DNA of 64,000 nt, from positions 1 to 64,000 of the forward strand of contig SYIK01000013.1 of assembly GCA_005798905.1 (NCBI GenBank), given 5' to 3'. Below are positions 33,067 to 64,000 of the stretch, in pieces (within the stretch, counting starts at the first letter, position 1; every line of letters begins with the position of its first letter). A program made the translations under genes and the position numbers. Under the pieces are notes generated by a model that worked only from the letters and a program-made list of their open reading frames with translations, did not search any database and was not told the DNA's origin. Source of the stretch: Bacteroidota bacterium. GTDB taxonomy: Bacteria > Bacteroidota > Bacteroidia > Chitinophagales > Chitinophagaceae.

Positions 33067-34686
33067 TTAGTTGTCAATTTTTTTTGTAAAAACATAAAAA
33101 TTTTCATCAATCATTAAATTCAAATCGTTTTGCATTTGTTGCTCTTGCCATTGTGTTGTTGGATGAAGCCAGATTTTAGAGTCTTTAATTTTAATCGGCA
33201 TATCAAAATTAGTTACACAATTCGTCCATCGATAATTTAGAAGTCCATTAATTTTTTTATACTCTAAAATTGGAATTTGATTTGTTCTTAAATATTGGTC
33301 AAATATTTTTGAAAGATTAATTCCTGAATTTTCGGAAATGTAGTTTTCAATTGTTTGCGTTGTAACTGTTTGATGATAAAAAGTTTTGTTCAACCCTCTC
33401 ATAATTTGCCTGAATTTTTCATCATAATCAACTAACTGACGAATTAAGTGAAGAAGGTTTCCACCTTTTGGATACATGTCGCCACTTCCTTCGCTATTAA
33501 CTCCGTATTCTCCAATAATATTTTTTTTGTTTTGAATACCTTTTCTTGTTCCAATTAAATATTCATTTCCTGCAGTTTTTCCAAAATGATAATCGGTGAA
33601 AAGTGTCTCGGAATAATTAGTAAATCCTTCGTGCAACCACATATCAGCGATATCTGTACTGGTAATATTGTTTCCAAACCATTCGTGTCCTGTCTCGTGA
33701 ACAATAATAAAATCCCATTTTAAACCCCAGCCAGTACCGGAAAGATCTCTACCCAAATATCCATTCTTAAATTTATTGCCATACGCAACTGCACTTTGAT
33801 GTTCCATTCCCAAATGTGGCGATTCAATTAATTTATATCCGTCTTCATAAAACGGGTAGGGGCCAAACCAATGTTCAAATGCTTTTAAGGTTAATGCAAC
33901 TTGTTTAAATTGTTCTTTTGCTGCATCGAGATTATAATCTAAAACCCAATAATCGCAATCAAGATTTCCTTTTTCTCCGGCAAAATCTTCGTGCCAATTC
34001 ACGTATTTTCCGATGTATGGAATAATATTATAATTGTTAATTGGGTTTACCACTTTCCATTTATAAGTTGTTTCGCCGGCAGCATAACTTTTTTTACCCA
34101 TAAAACGACCATTCGCAATTGCAACCAATGTATCAGGAACCGCCACATTTATAAAAGCACTGTCGGGTTCATCACTTTGGTGGTCTTTGCACGGATACCA
34201 AGCACTTGCACCTAAACCTTGACAAGCTACACTCATCCAAGGTCTTCCCAATTTATCTTCTTTAAAAATCCAACCGCCATCCCAAGGTGGTTTTTTTGCA
34301 ATTTGAGGATTGCCTTGAAAAACGATCGTAATAGTTTGAATTGAATATACAGGCAGTGATTCTTTAAAATCGATATAATAAACATTTCCATCGTTTGAAA
34401 AGGAAAGCGATTCTTTTTCTTTCCAATACACTCGACTAATTTTCATCGGAGCTTGAAGATCAATTTGCATTTTCATTCCCGGCTTTACAACTTTGAATTG
34501 AATTTCATTTTTTCCTTCAATCGTTTTATTGATAAAGTTTGGATAAATGCCAATAGTGTAACAAGTAACATCCCACCAATTTCTATTTTCATTAATCGTT
34601 CCTCGAAGAGAATCCTGCCGAGAATATTGTGCAGATGAAGAAAAGAAAATAAGAATTGTAAACAATAAAGTGAAATATTTTTTCAT
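33067..34686 (-). CDS. M1 family metallopeptidase (aminopeptidase N-like), secreted
   Basis: This 539-residue protein starts with a signal peptide (MKKYFTLLFTILIFFSSSAQ). The N-terminal beta domain is followed by the thermolysin-like domain, with the exopeptidase motif degenerate but recognisable (HLGMEHQSAVAYG, equivalent of GAMEN). The zinc motif HETGHEWFGN (about 330) is followed by the third ligand Glu in LHEGFTNYSE. It is shorter than cytosolic PepN and lacks the C-terminal helical domain, as in other Bacteroidota forms. It likely trims peptides in the periplasm or outside. Confidence 0.92.
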   Translation of the reverse strand: MKKYFTLLFTILIFFSSSAQYSRQDSLRGTINENRNWWDVTCYTIGIYPNFINKTIEGKNEIQFKVVKPGMKMQIDLQAPMKISRVYWKEKESLSFSNDGNVYYIDFKESLPVYSIQTITIVFQGNPQIAKKPPWDGGWIFKEDKLGRPWMSVACQGLGASAWYPCKDHQSDEPDSAFINVAVPDTLVAIANGRFMGKKSYAAGETTYKWKVVNPINNYNIIPYIGKYVNWHEDFAGEKGNLDCDYWVLDYNLDAAKEQFKQVALTLKAFEHWFGPYPFYEDGYKLIESPHLGMEHQSAVAYGNKFKNGYLGRDLSGTGWGLKWDFIIVHETGHEWFGNNITSTDIADMWLHEGFTNYSETLFTDYHFGKTAGNEYLIGTRKGIQNKKNIIGEYGVNSEGSGDMYPKGGNLLHLIRQLVDYDEKFRQIMRGLNKTFYHQTVTTQTIENYISENSGINLSKIFDQYLRTNQIPILEYKKINGLLNYRWTNCVTNFDMPIKIKDSKIWLHPTTQWQEQQMQNDLNLMIDENFYVFTKKIDN

Positions 34687-52754: not shown

Positions 52755-52785
52755 TTTGATGCAAGCTAAAAAAAAAATATCTTTG
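52755..52785 (+). promoter_or_regulatory. promoter of tRNA-Arg
   Basis: TTTG (52755-52758), 19 bp spacer, TATCTTTG (52778-52785): an exact match to the Bacteroidota TTTG-N19-21-TAnnTTTG promoter. The predicted start is about 10 nt before the tRNA. It serves as an internal reference for the promoter pattern also found in the CRISPR repeats. Confidence 0.85.
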
Positions 52786-52801: not shown

Positions 52802-52875
52802 GGTCCGGTAGCTCAGTTGGATAGAGAAACTGCCTTCTAAGAAGTAGGCCATTGGTTCGAATCCAATCCGGATCA
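52802..52875 (+). tRNA. tRNA-Arg(UCU), with a mismatch in the anticodon stem
   Basis: The 74 nt fold as a cloverleaf: acceptor GGTCCGG/CCGGATC with one G-U pair, T-arm ATTGG-TTCGAAT-CCAAT, anticodon loop CTTCTAA (anticodon TCT), variable loop AGGCC, discriminator A, no encoded CCA. The anticodon stem ACTGC/GAAGT has a G-A mismatch at pair 30-40, and position 10-25 of the D stem is G-A. It has a consensus promoter. Its 3' end is repeated at 56411-56422, so it is the apparent integration site. Confidence 0.88.
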
Positions 52876-52882
52876 CATAGTA

Positions 52883-52920
52883 TTGATAATGGTTTCATTG
52901 AAAAATGAAACCATTATCAA
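52883..52920. repeat. perfect 17-bp inverted repeat just after the tRNA
   Basis: TTGATAATGGTTTCATT and its exact reverse complement are separated by GAAA. No T-run follows on either strand, so it is not a standard terminator. It may be a tRNA 3'-processing or anti-transcription structure, or a protein-binding palindrome. Its first bases are also part of the direct repeat shared with 56423-56434. Confidence 0.9.
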
Positions 52921-53034
52921 TTGCGCTGGTTTAAACATAGTTTAAACTTTAATGCATATTATTAGTATACGCTGTTTTTTATCTTTAGTAAAATTAAGGG
53001 ACTTAGATTTGAATTATGAAGCAAAAAACATGCT

Positions 53035-53080
53035 TTAACTTCATATTTGCATAGCAAATATGAAGTTAAGGTTTTTTTTT
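53035..53080 (+). terminator. strong rightward terminator, possible end of a small RNA
   Basis: TTAACTTCATATTTGC (53035-53050) pairs perfectly with 53054-53069 around an ATA loop, followed by GG and ten T's from 53072. TAGATTTG at 53004-53011 fits a -7 element, so an RNA of about 65 nt from near 53016 is possible. No -33 box is seen. Confidence 0.7.
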
Positions 53081-53129
53081 CATAATTTCAAATTTGAATA
53101 TAAAAAATTAAAAAACAAGACTACTCTAA

Positions 53130-53248
53130 TTACTTGCTTACACGAAAATCATAATTAATAGTAAGATGAAGTAAGGTTGAAAATAATAGCTTACTCGAAA
53201 AATAACTTGTTGTTATCACTGGTTCAAAGATTTCGAGTAAGCAAGTAA
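53130..53248. repeat. inverted and direct repeat cluster next to the VapE gene
   Basis: Element A is TTACTTGCTTACACGAAA (53130-53147). Element B is GCTTACTCGAAA (53189-53200), in the same orientation. Element C is TTTCGAGTAAGCAAGTAA (53231-53248), the reverse complement of A with one mismatch. TTAATTAATTAATTA follows C. They may be sites for the island's HTH protein, integrase arm sites, or an origin recognised by the adjacent primase/helicase. Confidence 0.75.
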
Positions 53249-53283
53249 TTAATTAATTAATTAGTATACATTATTAAACTATG

Positions 53284-55272
53284 TCAAGAAATTTCAATCA
53301 CGAAATATCCGTAAATAGAATACTTTGAGTTTTTACAATAATCTTGCAATCTTTTAAAACCTAATTGCTTCATTGCCTTGCCAACGGAGGAGATATTAAA
53401 TCTCATTTCAGGGTTATCAAAACTAATTTTTTTTAATATGTTAGCAGCAGTAATAAATGTACCTCCACTTTCCTTAGAACCTTTGTAATAAGTATTTTGT
53501 ATTATTTGAAATTCAATACTATTAACTTGGAATGCTTTATTTGCTAATTCATTCTCTGCAATTTCTTTTGGTGTAAGTTGAAAATCAAATCCATTATTAT
53601 ATAACGAATATGCTTGCCGCCAAACATCATCAATGTCAACTTCGCTTTTATATTTAAAATTAATCATATCGGTAAGTTCAAAACATAACCAACGTACAGA
53701 ACCGGTTTCATCAGTTAGGAATTCATCTTTGTTTGTTGATCCTATAAAATTTGCCCTTCTTGGCATTGTTTGAGCCCTTTTACTATACGGCAATCGAACA
53801 CTTATTTTATCCTTACTTGTAAAACTTTTTAAAGAATTTAATTCAACTTTATTAAGTGTTGCCAATTCATCCATATTGATTATAAAGTTTGTAGCTAATG
53901 CAATTAAACTGTCTTTGTCTGTATTAATATTTTCTGCGATGTAATCTTTCAAAACTGGTGGGCAAAGCCATCTGCAAAAAGTAGATTTACCACTGTTTTG
54001 TAGATCATGAACTAAAATGAAAACTTGTTTATTAAAAATTTTGTCATCAATTGAGCAGGCAACAGACCGAACTAGCATTTTTTTTAAATGTAGCTCAAAT
54101 CTTTCTCTGTCTTTTGCAGGAATATAGCTTGCAAGTTTTAATATATAATCTTCATCACCTAGCTTCCATTCTTTCAAATTGTTAAAATATTCTTGAAATG
54201 GATTGTATGGAATAACGAAATCAGATTGCAATAAGGAACCAAGATTACCTAACGTTATCTTAATATTATTATGTTCTAATTCCCTACGTAGGGAATTATC
54301 ATTTAATTCCTTGAAAATACCTTGTACAGATTTTTCTCGAATTTCAATTTTAGTGTTAACCTCATTAAATCTGATTTCATATTTTTCGTTAATATAATTT
54401 TCAACTCTTGCCAAAGCCGAAAAGCTAATATTGTTTGAATTTATATCTTCAGTTTTAGATTCATTCTTAGTATATGAGTAGGCACTATTTACAGGATTAA
54501 AGATTTCTTCATTTTTAAAATCATTATCAGCGTATTTTTCTAATAAAAAGGTTTGACAAAAAGTTTTATCAAATCCTTCTTTTAAACAAATACTTGCAAA
54601 TTTGAAAATAAAATTGTTTCTATTACCGGGTGAAAAAGTTTCTTTCTTTTTGAATATTTCTAATAATGATTCAATTTGATACTTATTGTACTCTGTTAAA
54701 TTCCATTCTTTTGAATTCTCATTTACATATAAATCCTTATCGTAACTTAAAAACATTAGTCTAGTTATATCCTTACAGCTTTTATCAAGGATTAGTTTAT
54801 ACTTTTTTGAATAGTATGATTGAAGCAAATGAAAGTTTTCAGCGTGTTTTTTTGCATCTGTTTTAACTCTAACAAATAATTTTATGCCATTCCCAGAAGG
54901 ACTAATAAAAACGCAATATGTATAGAGATCAGTTGATAAGAAATTCTTTACTTCATAGGTATTTTTAATATTGTCAAAATCGAGACAAATAAAACCACTA
55001 TACTTAATTAATTGTTCTGACTTCCTTTGTCCATCAAAAAGCCCGGAAGGTGTTATGGCTGGGAGTTTCTTTTTTAAAAAATCAGCATTGTCTTTGTTTG
55101 TTTCGTTTCTCAATTGCTCAATAATTTGTTTAATATTAATATCACCTCTTATCATTTGAAAAATTTCGGACAATTCATACGATGTATTTGTCTTATCAGT
55201 TAAAGACTTATAATATGAAATAAAAAAAGAGTTTTGTCTGCTTACATTTTCAAAGTTGTTAAGCTTTTCCAT
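53284..55272 (-). CDS. VirE/VapE-type primase-helicase (BT4734-like N-domain)
   Basis: This 662-residue protein has an N-terminal BT4734/VirE_N-like primase-type domain (about 75-190: YSGFICLDFDNIKNTYEVKNFL, FISPSGNGIKLFVRVK). The C-terminal VapE superfamily-3 helicase domain has Walker A LQNSGKSTF near 428, Walker B IINMDELATL, and RANFIGSTNKDEFLTDETGSVRWL. Such proteins drive replication of Bacteroidota integrative and satellite elements. It overlaps the HTH gene upstream by 14 bp. Base composition is visibly more AT-rich than the cas1-cas2 genes. Confidence 0.88.
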   Translation of the reverse strand: MEKLNNFENVSRQNSFFISYYKSLTDKTNTSYELSEIFQMIRGDINIKQIIEQLRNETNKDNADFLKKKLPAITPSGLFDGQRKSEQLIKYSGFICLDFDNIKNTYEVKNFLSTDLYTYCVFISPSGNGIKLFVRVKTDAKKHAENFHLLQSYYSKKYKLILDKSCKDITRLMFLSYDKDLYVNENSKEWNLTEYNKYQIESLLEIFKKKETFSPGNRNNFIFKFASICLKEGFDKTFCQTFLLEKYADNDFKNEEIFNPVNSAYSYTKNESKTEDINSNNISFSALARVENYINEKYEIRFNEVNTKIEIREKSVQGIFKELNDNSLRRELEHNNIKITLGNLGSLLQSDFVIPYNPFQEYFNNLKEWKLGDEDYILKLASYIPAKDRERFELHLKKMLVRSVACSIDDKIFNKQVFILVHDLQNSGKSTFCRWLCPPVLKDYIAENINTDKDSLIALATNFIINMDELATLNKVELNSLKSFTSKDKISVRLPYSKRAQTMPRRANFIGSTNKDEFLTDETGSVRWLCFELTDMINFKYKSEVDIDDVWRQAYSLYNNGFDFQLTPKEIAENELANKAFQVNSIEFQIIQNTYYKGSKESGGTFITAANILKKISFDNPEMRFNISSVGKAMKQLGFKRLQDYCKNSKYSIYGYFVIEIS

Positions 55273-55603
55273 GTTTGCCTCCTTTTATTTTGGAACTATT
55301 GTCCTTTAAAATCTCTTTTATACTTGATTTTTTTCCGTCAGTTAACCATGCTTCTAATTCAGATTTTCTGAAATAAAGTTTTTTGCCTTTTTTGAAGAAT
55401 GGAATTGTACGGTTGGAAGTAAAACTGTACAGTGTTTGAATAGCTAAGTTTAAAAAACTTGCTGCCTCTGAAATACTTAAGATCTTATTGCTAATTTCAT
55501 TATTAGCTTTAAGACCACTTTCTTTAATCCCTTCACTTATTGAAGTTTTTAGAATCTCTTTAAATTCACTTTCGGTGAATTGAACAATGATGTTGTGTGC
55601 CAT
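55259..55603 (-). CDS. excisionase-like helix-turn-helix protein
   Basis: About 114 residues from the preferred ATG at 55603 (MAHNIIVQFTESEFKE; an upstream ATG at 55633 adds ten unconserved residues). The C-terminal half has the MerR-like HTH_17 excisionase domain, ILSISEAASFLNLAIQTLYSFTSNRTIPFFKKGKKLYFRKSELEAWL. In related elements these small proteins control excision or transcription. It is translationally coupled to the VapE gene. Confidence 0.85.
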   Translation of the reverse strand: MAHNIIVQFTESEFKEILKTSISEGIKESGLKANNEISNKILSISEAASFLNLAIQTLYSFTSNRTIPFFKKGKKLYFRKSELEAWLTDGKKSSIKEILKDNSSKIKGGKHGKA

Positions 55604-55683
55604 TTTAAAAATTTTAATTATGGCACAAAACAACTTATCAATATTTACACTAAAGTCCTACTAGGATGCTACTGGGATTAGAT

Positions 55684-56370
55684 TTATTTTTCCTTTTTTA
55701 GTTTTTCATTTTTATATTTATCAAAACCTTCTTCAAGTTTTTTAAATATTTTAGGTTTGTAATCGATATTTGAATTATGAATTGAACCAGATAAATTGCC
55801 CTGCCAGTCTTTAGTTAAAGTAATATTGAAAACCTTTGCAACATCTTTAACTAATTTAGTTATTTCACCTTTACTATTAGTTAAATATTCACCATGGAAC
55901 AGGCCATAGACTAATTGTGTGAATTCAGTGATATTATCCTTCTTCCATATTAGGTTTGTTGTTACTTTTTCAAGTTTTTTGTTATCAATTGAATTGTATT
56001 TGTTCTTTTCTAATTCAAGAAATTTAAACATTTCCATAAAAGCGTTGCACTTAGCTAAATTTTCTAAAAAGCCTTGTTTATTTCCCCCTTTTGTTGAAAT
56101 TATTTTTTTATTAAACTCGGTCTCAAAAATTTTATTTTTATCCGTGTTTAATTCATCAATTATTTCAATAAAAAAACGACTATGATTTCCTAAATCATTT
56201 TGTACTGCTAGATACTTTGTAGTAAGGTTCCTAAAAAATGTATTGTGTAATTCTAATTTAAATTTTTTTTTTGTATTTTTAATTTGCTTTTTATAATCGA
56301 TTAATAAGTTGTCAAAAATTGATTTCCACTTCTTTTCAAATATTAATAAATGTTTTTCATTTTTTTTCAT
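55684..56370 (-). CDS. RteC-like protein
   Basis: This 228-residue protein has a C-terminal part (about 145-225: TTNLIWKKDNITEFTQLVYGLFHGEYLTNSKGEI...VAKVFNITLTKDWQGNLSGSIHN) that fits the RteC family. RteC triggers excision-gene transcription in the Bacteroides conjugative transposon CTnDOT. The N-terminal part is lysine-rich and helical. It lies upstream of the HTH and VapE genes on the same strand and is predicted to regulate movement of the module. No tetracycline-type genes are present. Confidence 0.72.
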   Translation of the reverse strand: MKKNEKHLLIFEKKWKSIFDNLLIDYKKQIKNTKKKFKLELHNTFFRNLTTKYLAVQNDLGNHSRFFIEIIDELNTDKNKIFETEFNKKIISTKGGNKQGFLENLAKCNAFMEMFKFLELEKNKYNSIDNKKLEKVTTNLIWKKDNITEFTQLVYGLFHGEYLTNSKGEITKLVKDVAKVFNITLTKDWQGNLSGSIHNSNIDYKPKIFKKLEEGFDKYKNEKLKKEK

Positions 56371-56410
56371 AAAATAATTTTTTTTAAGATTTAGCTGAAC
56401 TTTTATTATT

Positions 56411-56434
56411 CATTCCGGATCAGTATTAATAATG
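56411..56434 (+). repeat. imperfect direct copy of the tRNA-Arg 3' end and flank (candidate att site)
   Basis: CATTCCGGATCA (56411-56422) matches CAATCCGGATCA at the tRNA 3' end (52864-52875) in 11 of 12 bases. The next 12 bases GTATTAATAATG match GTATTGATAATG (52880-52891) in 11 of 12, after a 4-nt gap (CATA) present only at the tRNA. Both copies are in the same orientation, as expected of att direct repeats. The copy lies between the RteC-like gene and the CRISPR array. Confidence 0.72.
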
Positions 56435-56502
56435 CTCGTATTTTTTAAATTTAGTGACTTTTTTTATGTTAACTATTTTTAAAAATTATTACAGCTATTT
56501 AG

Positions 56503-57317
56503 GGGCTAGGACACTTTCAAATTATGTTCTTTCTATCTTTGATAACAACGAGTACCGCTCAGTGGACGGGGTCTCCCAGTTGTGATTTGCTTTCAAATTA
56601 TGTTCTTTCTATCTTTGATAACAACCATTGATTCTGTTTGCGAAGTTCCGATAATCGTTGTGATTTGCTTTCAAATTATGTTCTTTCTATCTTTGATAAC
56701 AACTGCAAATCGTTTGTGTGCCATTACTCCACAGTTGTGATTTGCTTTCAAATTATGTTCTTTCTATCTTTGATAACAACAGATCAGGATTAACCCACCC
56801 ACTTATAACAGTTGTGATTTGCTTTCAAATTATGTTCTTTCTATCTTTGATAACAACTGCAACTTCGTGTTGAAGTCTGTTTTTTGAGTTGTGATTTGCT
56901 TTCAAATTATGTTCTTTCTATCTTTGATAACAACAGGAAGCGGCAATGTACAAGGAAGCGGAAGTTGTGATTTGCTTTCAAATTATGTTCTTTCTATCTT
57001 TGATAACAACAGCTAACGTCAACGACCAATAAGCCTTTTGGTTGTGATTTGCTTTCAAATTATGTTCTTTCTATCTTTGATAACAACATTGCCAGCTTTA
57101 TTGCATTTGTTCAAAAAGTTGTGATTTGCTTTCAAATTATGTTCTTTCTATCTTTGATAACAACTCGGCTGTATCATCAAAACCAACTGCACCAGTTGTG
57201 ATTTGCTTTCAAATTATGTTCTTTCTATCTTTGATAACAACCTGTATGGGTTGCCCCCCAAAAAATATCAGTTGTGATTTGCTTTCAAATTATGTTCTTT
57301 CTATCTTTGATAACAAC
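56503..57317 (+). CRISPR. type II-C CRISPR array, 11 repeats of 47 nt, 10 spacers of 29-31 nt
   Basis: Repeats start at 56503, 56579, 56657, 56734, 56811, 56888, 56964, 57041, 57118, 57195 and 57271. The last ten are identical, beginning GTTGTGATTTGCTTTC and ending TATCTTTGATAACAAC. The first has lost its first 11 bases of identity (shared from 56514). Spacer lengths are 29, 31, 30, 30, 30, 29, 30, 30, 30, 29. The repeat 5' end pairs with the tracrRNA at 62841-62912, so crRNAs are read rightward, against the cas genes. A 28-nt possible eleventh spacer and an eroded repeat follow. Spacer targets cannot be told from this window. Confidence 0.98.
56586..56617 (+). promoter_or_regulatory. promoter inside a CRISPR repeat (present in all ten complete repeats)
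   Basis: Repeat positions 8-11 are TTTG and 32-39 are TATCTTTG, separated by exactly 20 bp, matching the Bacteroidota consensus TTTG-N19-21-TAnnTTTG. The copy given is in the second repeat; the same occurs in every complete repeat. Transcription would start in the last bases of the repeat and read the spacer to its right. The first repeat keeps the -7 box but has GACA in place of the -33 TTTG. Confidence 0.7.
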
Positions 57318-57369
57318 AGTTTATGGAGAAAGTCCTTAAATACAAGTTGTTATAAGGATTTGAAGAATG
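57318..57369 (+). repeat. possible eleventh spacer (28 nt) and eroded terminal repeat
   Basis: After the last full repeat come 28 unique bases (57318-57345), then GTTGTTATAAGGATTTGAAG from 57346. GTTGT and the AT at positions 7-8 agree with the repeat start, but the 3' half with the -7 box is absent. It is either a degenerate end repeat or the start of the leader/trailer on the cas2 side. Confidence 0.5.
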
Positions 57370-57387
57370 AAAAAATCAAAGATTTTG

Positions 57388-57420
57388 TGTCCCGGAAATA
57401 AATTCTGGGACATTTTTTTT
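57388..57420 (+). terminator. terminator of the CRISPR array transcript
   Basis: TGTCCCGGAA (57388-57397) pairs with TTCTGGGACA (57403-57412) over ten positions including one G-U, followed by eight T's. The T-run is only on the + strand, confirming rightward transcription of the array into the convergent cas2 end. A weaker hairpin AAAATC-AAA-GATTTT lies just before it. Confidence 0.9.
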
Positions 57421-57428
57421 GCCCAATT

Positions 57429-57767
57429 TTAGAAAAGTTCAAGTTGTTGCGGCACATCCATTCGTTCGGCAAGTTTTTTACCTCGGTAAATTTCCATCAT
57501 GCCAAATTGTTTGTCGGTTATAGTCATAATACCGATATGACCTTTCTCGGGCAAAATACTTTTTACCCTTTTAATATGCACTGCTGCATTTTCTGAACTG
57601 GCGCAATGACGCATGTAAATAGAAAACTGAAACATCTGAAACCCATCTTGCATAATATTCTTTCTGAAACGGGCATAAATCTGTCTGTCTTTCTTGGTTT
57701 CAGTCGGCAAGTCAAAAAATACAAGTACCCACATAATGCGGTATGCTTTCAGTCTATCTGATTTCAT
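57429..57767 (-). CDS. cas2: CRISPR-associated endonuclease Cas2
   Basis: This 112-residue ferredoxin-fold protein has the N-terminal strand RIMWVLVFFDLPTETKKDRQIYARFRKNIMQDGFQMFQFSIYMRHC, with the conserved Asp in FFDLP. The C-terminus IGIMTITDKQFGMMEIYRG is typical of type II Cas2. It bridges two Cas1 dimers in spacer integration. Its start overlaps the cas1 stop (ATGA), so it is the last gene of the cas operon. Confidence 0.97.
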   Translation of the reverse strand: MKSDRLKAYRIMWVLVFFDLPTETKKDRQIYARFRKNIMQDGFQMFQFSIYMRHCASSENAAVHIKRVKSILPEKGHIGIMTITDKQFGMMEIYRGKKLAERMDVPQQLELF

Positions 57768-58675
57768 GTCAAAACAGGATAGGCTAATTTTTTAGTTTCT
57801 CCGGAATAAAATTTTGCAAGTGAAGCAGTGGTTTTTTGCACAGCTACAAAAAGTGGGCTGCTTTCGTTTTCTATTTCCACATCTATTGTTGGTATTTTCA
57901 ATAATTGCACTTTCAGCTCGGGTGTTAGGTTTTCAAGATGTGATGTTTTGTCAACCATTGCTCTTACTACTTCATCCACAAATGGGCGATAAGGTTCCAT
58001 AATATCATCGGCAAGGCAATAGGAATTGTAGCGGTTGCGGTGAAACACACCGAGGGTGGGCAATAAGCCCGAACCTACCAATGCTCTTGCAATACTTGCC
58101 CGTAATATAGCATAGCCGTAATTCAATATATTATTTGGTGGTGCGCCATCCCTTTTTCGGTAAAACATCCATGCAAGCGGTAATAAATTTTTCCAATAGT
58201 AGGCGGCAGCTTTTGCTTCATTATTATCGGCATCGCCACTTTTTACATTTTCGCTGTATCGTTTTAAAGTTTCAGCCGGTACATTATATTTTACAAGCAA
58301 GTTTGCCTGGTTCATAATTTTGGCTTTTACAGTTTGCTGCCAAATCTGTTTCTTCAACGGCTCGGCAGCATTTACTTGTGCTTGAAATCGTTCGGACTGA
58401 ATGGTATTTCCATCGAGATTCATAAATAGTCCAGTAGGATGGTGGGATGCATTGCAGGTAACAACTGCTGCATTGTTCAGTAGTAATCTGTCGAGCAAAA
58501 AATGAGAAATATTTATTTGATGGTGTTCGAGAATGACAATTCCAATATCCTCTATTGGGACTGATTTTTCTGGTATTTCCTCCATGCCCTTAATTCCGTT
58601 ATACGAAATAATGAACTGATCGTTTCGGCATTTGAGGTGTGCGGGGTTCTCAATGCAGATAGTTCGTTTTATCAT
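57764..58675 (-). CDS. cas1: CRISPR-associated endonuclease Cas1 (type II)
   Basis: This 303-residue integrase of spacers has an N-terminal beta domain (RTICIENPAHLKCRNDQFII...IVILEHHQINISHFLLDRLLLNNAAVVTCN). The catalytic helical domain has the metal ligands Glu in NNEAKAAAYYW (about 151), His in LGVFHRNRYN (about 207) and Asp in CLADDIMEPYRPFVD (about 220). It lies between cas9 and cas2. There is no csn2 or cas4, which defines type II-C. Sampled sequence is about 37% G+C in this operon end against about 27% in the RteC-like gene. Confidence 0.97.
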   Translation of the reverse strand: MIKRTICIENPAHLKCRNDQFIISYNGIKGMEEIPEKSVPIEDIGIVILEHHQINISHFLLDRLLLNNAAVVTCNASHHPTGLFMNLDGNTIQSERFQAQVNAAEPLKKQIWQQTVKAKIMNQANLLVKYNVPAETLKRYSENVKSGDADNNEAKAAAYYWKNLLPLAWMFYRKRDGAPPNNILNYGYAILRASIARALVGSGLLPTLGVFHRNRYNSYCLADDIMEPYRPFVDEVVRAMVDKTSHLENLTPELKVQLLKIPTIDVEIENESSPLFVAVQKTTASLAKFYSGETKKLAYPVLT

Positions 58676-58727
58676 AGGTTTTTGATTTGCTTTGTTAAAA
58701 CGGAAGAGAAGAGAAATTGGTATTCAA

Positions 58728-61700
58728 TCAAACTTTCCAGTTTATTTCACCATCGATAGTTATTTCAAAATGTTTGTTTTCAACAGCACAGGTAAAGTTA
58801 TTAGCAACTAGTCTTAATCTTGCTTGATATATTTCACTTTTAAAAAGCGTTTCTTCATTTGCAAGTTTATCATCGGATCTTGCTTCAATTTGGTTTCGAA
58901 GAAATATTAAAGGCGCTCCGGTTTCATTAAACTTATAAATCCTAAACAACCTTTTTAATAATTCTTTATTGGAAAGTTCTTTTAATTCTTCAATATGTTC
59001 TTTATAGAAGATAATCTTCGTTCCCACTTTTAGTATATGAATCAAAGGGATTTCCTTTTTCTTATTCCCTTTTCTGGTTTCTATCTTGTTATAATAGTTA
59101 TCCTGAAATAGTTCTTTCTCATTTTTTATTCCAAGTTTTGATAGGTCAAACAAGCCGATAATTCGGAACGCTCTTTCCACCTTATTTTCAAAATCACTTT
59201 CGTAGAATAAGCAATATGTATTTTGATTGTTTTGGGCATAAATATGTTGTTTATAATTATGTTTAGACTGGAAATTATGTTTTTGAATTTCTATTGCTTT
59301 TTCTGGTGTAAGGTATCCTCTTCCTGCAGCCACTTTACAGCGTACTTTTTTTATTATGGCTTTACCGGTTGGAAATGGAATTGGATTAAGCTTAGCTTTT
59401 TCAAAAGAAAGCCCCTCACTCATTCGTGCTTCTAATACTTCTTTTACGATTTTTCTTACAGCATCATCTACAATGTTTTTACAATCATCTATTTTGGCAA
59501 AGGCATCAATTGGATATCGTTCCACTAAATTCAACTCACCTTTATTTTTTATTGCTCCAAAATAGCTTTCCTTGTGCAACTGACCTCTTATACTATCTCC
59601 CTTAGCTTGCAAAGGAATTTTATCTCCATCTTTATCCAATTTGTACTGCCATTTTCCATCTGCCCATTTTACTTTTACAAATTGTACTTTTCCTCGTTTT
59701 CTTACTGTTTTAAAGGTGGGAGTTAGTGTTCGATGATCTGCCTGATAATTAATCAATACTTCATCTTCTATTCCTATGATATGTTGTTGATGGAAATTAT
59801 TCCATTGCTTCGGCTTTTCATGATAGCCCTGCTTGTTTTCATTGGCTTCATTGTATCTGAGCAATATTTTATCTCTTATTGCTGCAGGAGGTATGAGTGT
59901 TAATACGGCTGCATCGATAGCATGGTGGCTGTGTTTGGTTCGTTCTTTTTTCTCTAATCGATTTTGTATTTTAAATATTTTTCTAAAATCTGCCGTAATA
60001 CTTCCTTTCTGTACATCTACTTTATTGAATACGGTTTTTAAAAAGGGAAGTGCATATTTGGTAATGGTTTGAGTATCCCTTAACTGGCTATTTCGCCAGC
60101 CTTCTTTATACTCAGTTGTTGTAAAAGTAATCAACTTGTAACTCCAGTAGTCCAGATGCATTTTTGCAATATGTTTATCAACTATGTTTCTGTCTTTTGA
60201 ATCTTTTGTTTGTGCATTTTTTGCGAAATATTTATATCTATCATACAATGGTTCGTAATGCTCAATTTTATTTCTAATGAAATCAAGTCTTGGTAAAATT
60301 GCTGAAAACCCTAAAGCATCATTTTCATAATTCGGGCATTCAAATGGTAATTTCTTTTTTTTGATTTCTCTGTTATAATAACTGTCGGCAATTGTTAGAT
60401 TTTTAAGCTCATTGTCAAAGCTCATGCTTGCCGGAATACTGTGTTCGTAATCGTATTTTACCCCATTTAAAACATCGCAAAGCCCGATGGTTTTTCCTGT
60501 GTAAATACAAGTTCTCATCTGTTCTTCCCATAGTCTTATTTTATCTATAATGTTTTTATCTTCTCTATTAAAATCTGTTTTACTTTCCTTGTTAATTTCG
60601 TCAATAGTTTTTTTGTAAGTGTCATTTTCTTTTTCTTTAGCTCTTTGCCAACGTTCAATTGCTTTACGTTTATTTGTATCATTTAATTCACGTGCTATTT
60701 CAATAACTACTCTCGTATCTTCATCTATTTTGCCAACAGAAATCAAGTAGTTGATTAATTTTTTAAGCTTATATAATGTTTTTAAAGCCATCGGATTTTT
60801 GAAACCTTTGCTGATTGGCTCTGGTGTTCCTAAATAATGTTTGCCGTCTTTCTCAATGGCTCGGCTATAGGTTTCCTGTTCGGAGGGGTGCCACAAATAC
60901 TGAATATTAGATTCAGGTACATGGTAAGTATCTTTTATCCAGTTGAAAATTTTGTCGTGTAATCTTTCTGGTTTTTCGAATACATTTTTTGCATGAATCC
61001 TTTTTTGAAGAAAGGTCAGGTATTTATTACTAATTGTAGTTGTGGCAATGATTTTTTCTTTATTATCAAGATTGTTCCATGAATATTTACCAAAGGTTTC
61101 AACCAATTTTTGTTCAATATCTTTACGGTCGTCTTCATCTAATTGATAATTGGAATTCATTCCAAACCTATTTTCACCATTGAGTTGATCACTTATTAAT
61201 TCATTGGCGGCTTTATTGAGTTTTTTTTCAAAACTATTTTCCTTTATAATTCTTTTTACTTCTTCTGAAAAATGTTTTACAATATCGTCAGAAACATGTG
61301 CAACTCCCATCACTTTATGTAGATTGGCCAAATAGATGGCTTCGCTGTAAATAAATCCTTGCCTCAGGTAAGGCAATATTTTTTTAATTGCACTGAGGCT
61401 TAGTGTGGCGTAGCCTTGCTGAAGCCTTGTTTTGGCAAATATTTCAGCTTTTACATCTTCGAGTTTCAGTCTTTCAATTCCAAAACGTTTTAGAAAATCA
61501 AAAGCAGTTTCGCCTGTTTCTTTATTGTCTTTCTTTACAAAATGTAAATGCCAGAGGTCTTCGATATTGTATTTTTGTTTTTCTTTTTTTTCATTTAAGA
61601 GATTGTCCCATTCTGTCACTTCCTTCCATCTTTCTCCAAAAATTTCTTTCATTTTATATAAAAAAGAAAGGTTGATGACTTTTGTGTCATCAGGAAACCT

Positions 61701-62801
61701 TGCTGTTATTTCAAAACCTTTTTTCTTCAGTTCTTTAACAATACTTGATAATTTAAAATCTGCTGCTTTAAAAAATTGCGGATAAACATTATCATTTAAT
61801 AGAGATAACAATTGTCTGTTTTGTTCTTCATTAGTTTTAGTTTCATCTTCAGCAATTGGTTTTATTTTCAGATTATTTATAAAAACCCATGTTCTATATT
61901 CTTCATACAATGGATGACTTATAGGACAGCGCCTTTTATTTTGCTCAAATGTGCAAACACCCACTAACCCCTTTTGGCTTCTTAGTGGTCGTTGCCAAAT
62001 AATAGCTCTCCAAAAATCTTTGTATAAATTTTCCAATCCTTGAACATGACATATTTCTTTAATTTCTTTTTCATAATCACTTCTTAAATTGTAGCGCTTT
62101 CTTATTCTTACATTTTGCTCTTTCTGTATTTGATACAAAGCTGCGCCCAGTGTTTTGTATTTTATGATGTATGGCTGAATTTCATTTGCTCCAACAGCAC
62201 CACTATCACCGCCTCCCTTCATAATGGTTTTACTTAATTCATTTTTTTCATTTTCATCAATATTCTGTCCGTCATTATAACCTCTTCTTTGAACTAATTG
62301 ATATAAAACTCTTCCAATAATGTGTGGTTCATTTTTAAAAATTTCTACTTTGTTTTCATCTACGATCAGTGCTCTGAATAGGTAATAACTTTCATGTTTA
62401 CTAAAACCAAATCTTTCAAAGTCGGGTTTTCCATCTGCATCAAAATCAAAACGAAGCCAATTGATAAATCTTTCGTTTTGAGGGTATTTTCTTCCAATTC
62501 CTTTTTTATACTGCCTCCATGCATTCAATTCTTTAATTGACAATGGACACATTTTGTTTTCAATAAGACACTTAAGTAATTCCCACTTTCTATATTTTTC
62601 AGCTTGGTAGTTTCTTCTTTTTCCTCTGCTTTCAGTTCTTTTCTGAACCATTGGATGTTCACCAGATTTATCTTCAGCTACTCCTTTATCAAATGTTAAA
62701 ACTCCCTTATCAATAATCTGATTTTCGAGTTCACTATTTATTTCCCTAATTGCCCATCCAATCGAGTTGGTTCCTAAATCGAGGCCTAAAATTTTTTCCA
62801 T
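58728..62801 (-). CDS. cas9: Cas9 RNA-guided nuclease, type II-C
   Basis: This 1357-residue protein is near the upper size for II-C enzymes. RuvC-I is ILGLDLGTNSIGWAI with catalytic Asp8. The arginine-rich bridge helix follows (QKRTESRGKRRNYQAEKYRKWELL). RuvC-II is VVIEIARELN (Glu near 699). HNH is YDYEHSIPASMSFDNELKNLTIADSYYNREIKKKK (catalytic His near 788). RuvC-III is HSHHAIDAAVLTLI (His-Asp near 960). All catalytic residues are intact. It is first in the cas9-cas1-cas2 operon, 52 bp before cas1. The tracrRNA promoter begins 5 bp beyond its start codon, divergent. Confidence 0.98.
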   Translation of the reverse strand: MEKILGLDLGTNSIGWAIREINSELENQIIDKGVLTFDKGVAEDKSGEHPMVQKRTESRGKRRNYQAEKYRKWELLKCLIENKMCPLSIKELNAWRQYKKGIGRKYPQNERFINWLRFDFDADGKPDFERFGFSKHESYYLFRALIVDENKVEIFKNEPHIIGRVLYQLVQRRGYNDGQNIDENEKNELSKTIMKGGGDSGAVGANEIQPYIIKYKTLGAALYQIQKEQNVRIRKRYNLRSDYEKEIKEICHVQGLENLYKDFWRAIIWQRPLRSQKGLVGVCTFEQNKRRCPISHPLYEEYRTWVFINNLKIKPIAEDETKTNEEQNRQLLSLLNDNVYPQFFKAADFKLSSIVKELKKKGFEITARFPDDTKVINLSFLYKMKEIFGERWKEVTEWDNLLNEKKEKQKYNIEDLWHLHFVKKDNKETGETAFDFLKRFGIERLKLEDVKAEIFAKTRLQQGYATLSLSAIKKILPYLRQGFIYSEAIYLANLHKVMGVAHVSDDIVKHFSEEVKRIIKENSFEKKLNKAANELISDQLNGENRFGMNSNYQLDEDDRKDIEQKLVETFGKYSWNNLDNKEKIIATTTISNKYLTFLQKRIHAKNVFEKPERLHDKIFNWIKDTYHVPESNIQYLWHPSEQETYSRAIEKDGKHYLGTPEPISKGFKNPMALKTLYKLKKLINYLISVGKIDEDTRVVIEIARELNDTNKRKAIERWQRAKEKENDTYKKTIDEINKESKTDFNREDKNIIDKIRLWEEQMRTCIYTGKTIGLCDVLNGVKYDYEHSIPASMSFDNELKNLTIADSYYNREIKKKKLPFECPNYENDALGFSAILPRLDFIRNKIEHYEPLYDRYKYFAKNAQTKDSKDRNIVDKHIAKMHLDYWSYKLITFTTTEYKEGWRNSQLRDTQTITKYALPFLKTVFNKVDVQKGSITADFRKIFKIQNRLEKKERTKHSHHAIDAAVLTLIPPAAIRDKILLRYNEANENKQGYHEKPKQWNNFHQQHIIGIEDEVLINYQADHRTLTPTFKTVRKRGKVQFVKVKWADGKWQYKLDKDGDKIPLQAKGDSIRGQLHKESYFGAIKNKGELNLVERYPIDAFAKIDDCKNIVDDAVRKIVKEVLEARMSEGLSFEKAKLNPIPFPTGKAIIKKVRCKVAAGRGYLTPEKAIEIQKHNFQSKHNYKQHIYAQNNQNTYCLFYESDFENKVERAFRIIGLFDLSKLGIKNEKELFQDNYYNKIETRKGNKKKEIPLIHILKVGTKIIFYKEHIEELKELSNKELLKRLFRIYKFNETGAPLIFLRNQIEARSDDKLANEETLFKSEIYQARLRLVANNFTCAVENKHFEITIDGEINWKV

Positions 62802-62805
62802 TTCT

Positions 62806-62837
62806 TTTGTTTTATTGGTTTTTAGTATTTAGTTTTG
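62806..62837 (+). promoter_or_regulatory. tracrRNA promoter
   Basis: TTTG (62806-62809), 20 bp spacer, TAGTTTTG (62830-62837): the same arrangement and spacing as in the CRISPR repeats. The -33 box lies 5 bp from the cas9 start codon, in its 5' leader region. Confidence 0.8.
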
Positions 62838-62840
62838 GTT

Positions 62841-62912
62841 TGAAAGCTTATCACAATAAGGCTATAAGCCGAAGATTATTCTTAAGCCCTGCGTATTCCG
62901 TGGGGCTTTTTT
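62841..62912 (+). ncRNA. tracrRNA
   Basis: The anti-repeat TTTGAAAGC-TT-ATCACAAT (62839-62857) pairs with the repeat's 5' end. GTTGTGAT pairs with ATCACAAT over 8 positions (one G-U), then a TT/TT internal loop, then GCTTTCAAA pairs with TTTGAAAGC over 9. After it come AAGG, a nexus hairpin GGCT-ATA-AGCC (62860-62870), and a terminator AGCCCTGCG/CGTGGGGCT (62885-62907) with T6. Size is about 72 nt. The -7 box predicts a start near 62841, which would trim two bases of the upper stem. It is divergent from cas9. Confidence 0.92.
62885..62912 (+). terminator. intrinsic terminator of tracrRNA
   Basis: A nine-pair stem (two G-U) around a TATTC loop, followed by six T's ending at 62912. Confidence 0.93.
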
Positions 62913-63157
62913 AAAATATTTTATTAGCAAAAAATTATATTATTCGAGAAAAATATCTTGTAAGGTAGGAGATTAATATATATAAAACAATACAACTTAT
63001 CGGGGGGGGGGGTATAATTAGGCTAAAAGAGGGAAATGCACTAATTGGGTAAAAAATCAATGCTCTTAATTATTTCTACTTTTTTTAGAGAAAGAAATTT
63101 TCGGTGTTTGTCAAATTTATTACTGAAGATTAACTCATTTTGTTATTAACTGTTACT
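62913..63157. other. intergenic 245 bp with a G11 tract
   Basis: No gene is seen. The stretch is AT-rich except for eleven consecutive G at 63002-63012, directly followed by TATAATTA. It separates the tracrRNA terminator from the 3' end of the integrase gene. No copy of the tRNA 3' end was found here. Confidence 0.6.
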
Positions 63158-64000
63158 TTATAGCAAAGCATTACTTGCTGCATCTAAAATATTATTTTCA
63201 AAACTCTCTAAATATATTTTAGTAGTTTTTTCGCTATCATGCCCCATAGCTTCACTGATAATTGCAGTTGTAATTCCGCTTTTCTTTAAAATAGTAGCAT
63301 AACTATGTCTTGCAACATAAGTCGTTAATTCGCTTTCTATTCCTGTTAATAAAGCAATTTCCTTTAAATCGGTATTAATTTTTCTAATTAATTTCTCTTT
63401 ACGGTTAAAAATTGATTGCGGTGTGTTGTGTGTTTCATTTAGAATTGGGAAAACATAACTTTCAGAATTTGAAAAAGTTTGTTTTTTATAAAATTTTAAA
63501 ATTTCATAAACCTCCGGCCGTATTTCAATATTAAATAACTCATTTGTTTTTTTTCGTGTATAAATCAAGCGACCATTTTTTATATCCTTCCATTTCAATA
63601 ATGCTATATCAATAAAATTTATTCCTCTGCATAAATAACTAAACATGAATATATATTTTGCATCTGTTAAGTGAGGATGTTTTAATAAGTTTAGATTATT
63701 TATTTTTAATATTTCTTTTTTTGAAATAGCTCTTTTTTCGGTTTTAATCTTTGCATATTTAGCCAAACTAAATTTTTTGAAAGGGTAGTACTTGTCACTA
63801 CAAATTTCTTCTTTAATTGCTTTATTTAACAATGCTCTTAATGTTCTCAGGTATATATAAATTGTATTCCCACCATTTTTATTAGATTTTAAATATTCTT
63901 CATATTTGTTTAAAAACTCAATATCAATATCTGAGAAGTGGAGGTCTTTTGAATTTGTAAAATGACTCAAGTTCCTTTTTGCATCTTTATAGATCAAAGA
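63158..64000 (-). CDS. tyrosine recombinase/integrase (5' end outside window)
   Basis: At least 280 residues of a phage-type site-specific recombinase; the frame is open to the right edge and the N-terminus is missing. A SAM-like core-binding domain (FSDIDIEFLNKYEEYLKSNKNGGNTIYIYLRTLRALLNKAIK) precedes the catalytic domain. That domain has Arg in SYLCRGINFIDIALLKWKDI, the HxxR-type box TYVARHSYATILKKSG, and GHDSEKTTKIYL with the nucleophile Tyr. It is of the Bacteroidota element type. It may move the CRISPR-bearing segment or another element to the right. Confidence 0.93.
   Translation of the reverse strand, partial: SLIYKDAKRNLSHFTNSKDLHFSDIDIEFLNKYEEYLKSNKNGGNTIYIYLRTLRALLNKAIKEEICSDKYYPFKKFSLAKYAKIKTEKRAISKKEILKINNLNLLKHPHLTDAKYIFMFSYLCRGINFIDIALLKWKDIKNGRLIYTRKKTNELFNIEIRPEVYEILKFYKKQTFSNSESYVFPILNETHNTPQSIFNRKEKLIRKINTDLKEIALLTGIESELTTYVARHSYATILKKSGITTAIISEAMGHDSEKTTKIYLESFENNILDAASNALL

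Follow-up and report, generated by a model that had tools for sequence, protein, structure and literature searches.

Candidate Bacteroidota promoters inside the repeats of a type II-C CRISPR array

Results

A type II-C locus with ten identical repeats

The stretch of DNA analysed here, 64,000 nucleotides long and referred to as the window, carries a type II-C CRISPR-Cas locus of a Bacteroidota genome, with cas9, cas1, cas2 and a tracrRNA (Table 1). Neither csn2 nor cas4 is present, and the interval between the array and the tracrRNA holds cas2, cas1 and cas9 only. The complete repeats start at positions 56579, 56657, 56734, 56811, 56888, 56964, 57041, 57118, 57195 and 57271; in the eleventh, degenerate one, the part pairing with the tracrRNA and the −33 TTTG are lost and the box TATCTTTG is kept at 56534-56541. 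As the intact end of the array faces cas2 and the degenerate repeat lies at the far end, we place the leader on the cas2 side, where the terminator of the array sits just ahead of the 3′ end of the convergent cas2. The anti-repeat of the tracrRNA, encoded on the plus strand at 62839-62856, pairs with nucleotides 2-19 of the repeat at 16 of 18 positions, and the crRNA strand is thus the plus strand.

Table 1. Coordinates of the CRISPR-Cas features and candidate promoters in the window
Feature	Position	Strand	Comment
tRNA-Arg promoter, TTTG-N19-TATCTTTG	52755..52785	+	local positive control; tRNA at 52802-52876
Degenerate oldest ("extra") repeat, eleventh	56503..56549	+	nt 1-11 replaced, nt 12-47 intact
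CRISPR array	56579..57317	+	47-nt repeat GTTGTGATTTGCTTTCAAATTATGTTCTTTCTATCTTTGATAACAAC in ten identical copies, with nine spacers (29-31 nt) between them
Candidate repeat-internal promoter 1	56586..56617	+	TTTG 56586-56589, N20, TATCTTTG 56610-56617
Candidate repeat-internal promoter 2	56664..56695	+	motif match
Candidate repeat-internal promoter 3	56741..56772	+	motif match
Candidate repeat-internal promoter 4	56818..56849	+	motif match
Candidate repeat-internal promoter 5	56895..56926	+	motif match
Candidate repeat-internal promoter 6	56971..57002	+	motif match
Candidate repeat-internal promoter 7	57048..57079	+	motif match
Candidate repeat-internal promoter 8	57125..57156	+	motif match
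Candidate repeat-internal promoter 9	57202..57233	+	motif match
Candidate repeat-internal promoter 10	57278..57309	+	motif match; leader-proximal, would transcribe the newest spacer position
Putative leader, acquisition side	57318..57386	+	between last repeat and terminator
Intrinsic terminator for rightward array transcripts	57387..57421	+	11-bp stem and T run
cas2	57429..57767	-	TIGR01573
cas1 (type II)	57764..58675	-	TIGR03639
cas9	58728..62801	-	TIGR01865; 1357 aa
tracrRNA promoter, TTTG-N20-TAGTTTTG	62806..62837	+	motif match
tracrRNA: anti-repeat, hairpin, terminator	62839..62913	+	fold z = -2.4

A complete promoter motif in each complete repeat

In all ten complete repeats, TTTG at nucleotides 8-11 is followed, after 20 nucleotides, by TATCTTTG at nucleotides 32-39, the whole reading toward the spacer on the right. 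The exact pattern occurs ten times in the window, always within a repeat, and has no match on the minus strand; the looser TTTG-N18-21-TAnnTTTG gives 13 matches, again none on the minus strand, and the three that fall outside the repeats lie at 33281, 52755 (tRNA-Arg) and 62806 (tracrRNA). Being identical, the ten repeat copies count as a single event for statistics. The initial annotation had assigned this signal to every repeat and also to the tRNA-Arg and the tracrRNA; it was right about the two genes and the ten complete repeats, the degenerate copy without TTTG being the exception. Matches to the sigma-70 consensus on the minus strand of every repeat were set aside as artefacts of a consensus unsuitable for this host.

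The housekeeping sigma factor of Bacteroidota recognises TAnnTTTG at −7 and TTTG at around −33 (PMC7366714), the −7 box spanning positions −12 to −5 (PMC9723704). An array-independent check of this model comes from the comparison of intergenic and coding DNA in about 2.2 Mb of Bacteroidota sequence fetched around cas9 genes, the statistics being those of the fetched loci and not of the window's own genome: intergenic enrichment of TTTG-Nd-TAnnTTTG is confined to d = 18, 19 and 20, with 47, 111 and 34 matches per Mb against 5, 10 and 6 in open reading frames. The window repeats, with both elements in the crRNA sense and 20 nucleotides apart, fall within this 18-20 nt range, on the shoulder of the optimum rather than at its peak. 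In mismatch tests against off-spacing controls, box position 7 proved free (TTAG 3.3-fold, TTCG 2.8-fold and TTGG 2.5-fold enriched) and G at position 1 partly tolerated (about twofold), changes at positions 2, 5, 6 and 8 were not tolerated, and GTTG at −33 served as well as TTTG (4.3-fold). The boxes of CRISPR repeats vary in just the ways that genomic promoters tolerate. The strict bipartite promoter is also found within 70 nt upstream of 16 of the 54 putative anti-repeats.

Enrichment of the −7 box in related repeats

We detected arrays at 104 cas9 loci and added more repeats from the window's own family. Once oriented in the crRNA sense, the set comprised 98 unique long repeats (44-48 nt) and 33 short ones (36-37 nt). 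Grouping by the repeat 3′ part at 80% produced 46 clusters of long repeats; at 70%, the repeats chained into nine uninformative clusters. With the tolerances from the genomic mismatch tests, we defined a relaxed −7 box as TAnnTTnG or GAnnTTTG, and used shuffles, antisense strands, permuted motifs and non-Bacteroidota arrays as controls. The relaxed box is present in 32.6 of the 46 clusters, which share ancestry and hence are not fully independent. When this 3′ part is shuffled the figure drops to 3.8, and none of 1,000 shuffles reached the observed number; the antisense strand gives none. TAnnTTnG alone is found in 26.9 clusters, against at most 5.6 for any of 19 permuted motifs, the bipartite form in 25.6 against 1.6, and the strict TAnnTTTG in 13.4 against 1.7. 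Dinucleotide shuffling of the long repeats gives TTG-N17-21-TAnnTTTG about 0.28 times per 37 repeats. The scan of related repeats that the initial annotation had proposed for its promoter thus turned out in the promoter's favour. At the unconstrained positions of the box, repeats differ at the same place, with TATCTTTG in the window, TAATTTTG in L217 and L242 and GATATTTG in L245, and three related 36-nt repeats carry TAGATTTG, TAATTTTG and TAGTTTTG. No box match was found in 22 of the 98 unique long repeats.

The interior box is absent from the 36-nt repeats of Flavobacterium and Bacteroides type in the survey. Such repeats (L063-L067, L075, L106-L119 and similar) end in TAGATT, TACATT, GATATT or GACATT, exactly 19 nt after a TTTG at nucleotides 8-11, and the same place is occupied by TACAAT or TATAAT in several non-Bacteroidota II-C repeats. 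We considered a split −7 box that would be completed by the first two nucleotides of the spacer, and reject it for now because spacer nucleotide 2 has no excess of G (0.173 against a background of 0.204, in 542 spacers). Nor does it hold that the extra 10-11 nt of the long repeats exist to house a promoter, as some 36-nt repeats within long-repeat clades keep the box at nucleotides 23-24. The repeats of eight non-Bacteroidota II-C-like arrays on plasmids are all 36 nt long; four of the eight end in a sigma-70 −10 box (GTTACAAT, GGTATAAT, GTTATAAT and GCTACAAT), and one, from Ilyobacter, has the relaxed box at nucleotide 17, by chance or otherwise. A small contig binned in a Bacteroidota genome (L201, at G469:C28) encodes a Neisseria-like Cas9 and has repeats ending in GGCTACAATC, with a sigma-70 −10 box; the same genome has an array of the Bacteroidota type (L124), and L201 is possibly contamination or a recent transfer.

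Registers of the box and the −33 TTG

Among the long repeats, the box starts mainly at nucleotides 23-24, 26-28 or 30-32. The first of these registers lies 18-20 nt from a TTG at nucleotides 2-4 and the last one 18-20 nt from a TTG at nucleotides 9-11; for the register 26-28, comprising 32 unique repeats, there is no TTG at 18-20 nt. The exact arrangement of the window, with TTTG at nucleotides 8-11 and the box at 32-39, describes its own lineage and not most of its relatives, which have the box at nucleotides 23-24 and would use the TTG at nucleotides 2-4. L034, L035, L185 and L192, which are relatives of the window on a Cas9 tree, carry the box at nucleotides 30-32. Of the 15 repeats with the box at nucleotides 29-32, 14 retain TTTG at nucleotides 8-11, compared with 38 of the 74 others, a difference with p = 0.002 for unique and 0.012 for dereplicated repeats in statistics that ignore phylogeny. 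Pairing with the tracrRNA or integration also fixes both TTGs, and their conservation alone thus says little about a −33 element.

The register 26-28, fitting neither TTG at 18-20 nt, is what the promoter reading accounts for least well. The −33 element may be dispensable in this group, or the box may work differently; in Flavobacterium johnsoniae, no −33 element was found (PMC7366714). L246 (genome G812), from the window's own genus, differs from the window in the 3′ half of the repeat, with TAGCTTAG at nucleotide 28 and no TTG at 18-20 nt, so both register and sequence have changed within one genus.

Pairing with the tracrRNA, polarity and the oldest repeat

A gapped Smith-Waterman search for anti-repeats was too permissive and was replaced by an ungapped one. 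The output of the latter still contains noise, its pick for the window being a chance match inside cas9, and we place the window's anti-repeat at 62839 on separate evidence. The clear matches to long repeats mostly cover nucleotides 1 to 15-27, the pairing of the window ending at nucleotide 19, and the box hence lies largely outside or at the edge of the crRNA:tracrRNA duplex. It also lies upstream of the guide, and crRNA function does not obviously demand it.

Where both ends of an array are in view, the terminal repeat on the sense 5′ side is the more degenerate one in 32 of 46 arrays and that on the 3′ side in none, with 14 ties. The degenerate end being the sense 5′ end, transcription runs toward the acquisition end, as it does in other II-C systems (PMC12080349). 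The window follows the same layout, its oldest repeat standing at the sense 5′ end and acquisition at the 3′ (leader and cas2) end. Erosion enters the oldest repeat from its outer end and usually spares the box: among 36 eroded repeats, a count that leaves out L134 and L226 with runs of N as their breakpoints, the breakpoint falls at nucleotides 1-22 in 32 and at nucleotides 23-32 in four. Erosion halts just ahead of the box in L184 (breakpoint at 22, box at 23), L146 (23 and 24) and L238 (27 and 28); the box is lost in two eroded terminal repeats, L152 and L164. Mutations in the first 15 nt of the II-C extra repeat were already known, and a retained promoter function has been suggested for it (PMC12080349); new here, on small numbers, is the relation of the erosion to the Bacteroidota −7 box. 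A strict bipartite promoter was found within 250 nt to the left of none of 47 arrays, nor in the corresponding flank of the window, and in none of 61 leaders did one read into the array.

Discussion

We consider it likely, judging from the sequence, that the crRNAs of this II-C array start from sigma-ABfr promoters inside the repeats and run toward the acquisition end. RNA polymerase would bind TTTG and TATCTTTG of each complete repeat and, as the box spans −12 to −5, is predicted to start at about repeat nucleotide 44 (around position 56622 in the first complete repeat), four nucleotides before the spacer. Each spacer would get a primary transcript of its own, consisting of about four repeat nucleotides and the spacer and continuing into the next repeat, whose first ~19 nt would pair with the anti-repeat of the tracrRNA; a single cut, presumably by RNase III, would then make the 3′ end of the crRNA. 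Transcription would proceed from the oldest spacer to the leader and cas2 side, ending at the terminator, and a newly added spacer would therefore already have a promoter upstream of it. Boxes at nucleotides 23-24 would place the start at nucleotides 35-36, leaving 11-12 repeat nucleotides before the spacer.

Taken together, the observations invite a broader reading, for and against which we see about equal chances: that II-C repeats were remodelled throughout the phylum to suit its own sigma factor. An interior −7 box would have taken the place of the sigma-70 −10 box that other phyla have at the repeat end, shifting between registers but holding a distance of 18-20 nt to one or the other of two TTGs; in the oldest repeat, purifying selection would stop at the box; and each spacer would form a transcription unit with a 5′ leader of about 4 or 11-12 nt, depending on the register.

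The conventional alternative is one long pre-crRNA, started by a promoter to the left of the oldest repeat or by read-through, with the motif in the repeats a relic or a coincidence. The II-C array of Flavobacterium columnare drew only eight reads (PMC8092290), which could speak for it, but the 5′ flanks of 47 arrays and that of the window hold no match to the promoter, the motif is enriched against permuted controls and absent from antisense strands, and eroded oldest repeats keep their 3′ part; we regard the long transcript as unlikely. In some other CRISPR types, integration is guided by motifs within the repeat, and TAnnTTnG could be kept because Cas1-Cas2 reads it during spacer integration, a notion that agrees with the exact duplication of repeats and their near-constant length of 46-47 nt. 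Yet the box starts at nucleotide 17, 23, 24, 26-29, 31 or 32, between 7 and 22 nt from the spacer end, and is ill suited to a fixed ruler; its tolerated substitutions are those of genomic promoters; and it persists in the oldest repeat, where integration no longer takes place. An integration signal is, on this evidence, very improbable. Scarcely credible to us is that the element is kept for RNA reasons, through extended pairing with the tracrRNA or crRNA processing, rather than as a DNA promoter: complementarity does reach the repeat 3′ end in several 36-nt repeats, but in long repeats with a clear anti-repeat it mostly stops before or at the edge of the box, and the repeat 3′ part, upstream of the guide, is not expected in the mature crRNA.

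The established cases of repeat-internal promoters, Neisseria and Campylobacter, are bacteria using sigma-70. The II-C array of Neisseria meningitidis is reportedly leader-independent, with a functional promoter in each repeat (Zhang et al. 2013, a study that PMC5006608 and PMC8092290 cite), and its 36-nt repeats are said to carry a sigma-70 −10 box in place of the sigma-ABfr −7 box seen here. The scheme predicted for the window, a promoter in each repeat reading the next spacer, is also that of Campylobacter jejuni (Dugar et al. 2013, PMC3656092), where crRNA 5′ ends are primary, the 3′ end is produced with the help of tracrRNA and RNase III, and the repeat-end box GGTAAAAT has been tied experimentally to the primary crRNAs. 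There, the repeats are 36 nt long and the extended −10 box forms their extreme 3′ end, with transcription starting at spacer nucleotide 5; in the window, where the start is a prediction, TATCTTTG lies eight nucleotides before the end of a 47-nt repeat and is accompanied by a −33 TTTG. No sigma-70 extended −10 box is found at the 3′ end of the window repeat, which ends in GATAACAAC. We thus file the array as a variant that would work in the same way as the Neisseria and Campylobacter arrays, not as one of that exact kind, and its independent origin, as proposed in the initial annotation, is plausible because both the type and the position of the box differ.

The idea itself is not new for Bacteroidota: earlier papers suggested promoters in the repeats of F. 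columnare (PMC8092290) and of F. psychrophilum (PMC10309648), and II-C arrays as a class have been described as having one promoter per repeat (PMC12080349). Hoikkala et al. 2021 (PMC8092290), with eight array reads as support, pointed to a TTG situated 33 bp ahead of every spacer in F. columnare, and the suggestion of a repeat-encoded −33 TTG was repeated for F. psychrophilum (PMC10309648). These arrays belong to the same phylum as the window and share with it the proposed repeat-encoded TTG and transcription toward the variable end; the passages concerned name the TTG alone and no −7 box in the repeat, and the Flavobacterium-type 36-nt repeats of our survey, unlike the window repeat, lack TAnnTTnG. 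The survey of II-C extra repeats found the oldest repeat mutated in its 5′ part, as here; its text mentions neither Bacteroid- nor Flavobacter- and does not treat the Bacteroidota signal (PMC12080349). In elements and 18-20 nt spacing, the motif equals the sigma-ABfr promoters of surrounding Bacteroidota DNA (PMC7366714, PMC9723704), differing from these in that it sits inside a CRISPR repeat and is copied with each new spacer. Our full-text searches of the literature, with most subscription journals outside their coverage, found no description of a −7 box in a Bacteroidota repeat. What appears new is the complete −33/−7 element and its phylum-wide support, the principle being known.

The result would carry repeat-encoded transcription of crRNAs beyond the sigma-70 bacteria, into a phylum whose housekeeping promoters follow another code, and the loose suggestion of a −33 TTG in F. 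columnare becomes a complete element open to testing. Should it hold, gut, oral and aquatic Bacteroidota can do without a promoter in the leader of their arrays, spacers are expressed as soon as they are acquired, whatever their position, and minimal crRNA cassettes of one repeat should work in Bacteroides without an added promoter. It would also give a reason why one part of the oldest repeat persists while the rest decays. Predictors trained on other organisms would miss such a promoter. This may explain why a published search of the 47-nt repeats of Riemerella anatipestifer, for which the tool named is the BDGP promoter predictor, found none (PMC5006608).

Some further features of the locus deserve a mention. 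It is flanked by the tRNA-Arg gene (52802-52876) and a tyrosine recombinase gene (63158-63997), and the same interval contains an excisionase-like gene (55259-55633) and a primase-polymerase/helicase-like gene (53284-55272); within this region (52802-63997), the CRISPR-Cas locus may be carried by an integrative element that used tRNA-Arg as its insertion site. A run of about ten G at 63002-63012, in the AT-rich region between the tracrRNA and the recombinase gene, is possibly a phase-variable tract or an assembly artefact. Elsewhere in the window's own genome, on the minus strand at G000:C8:193121-193213, two copies of the repeat start, one of them with a mismatch, lie 76 nt apart, a possible remnant or second small array.
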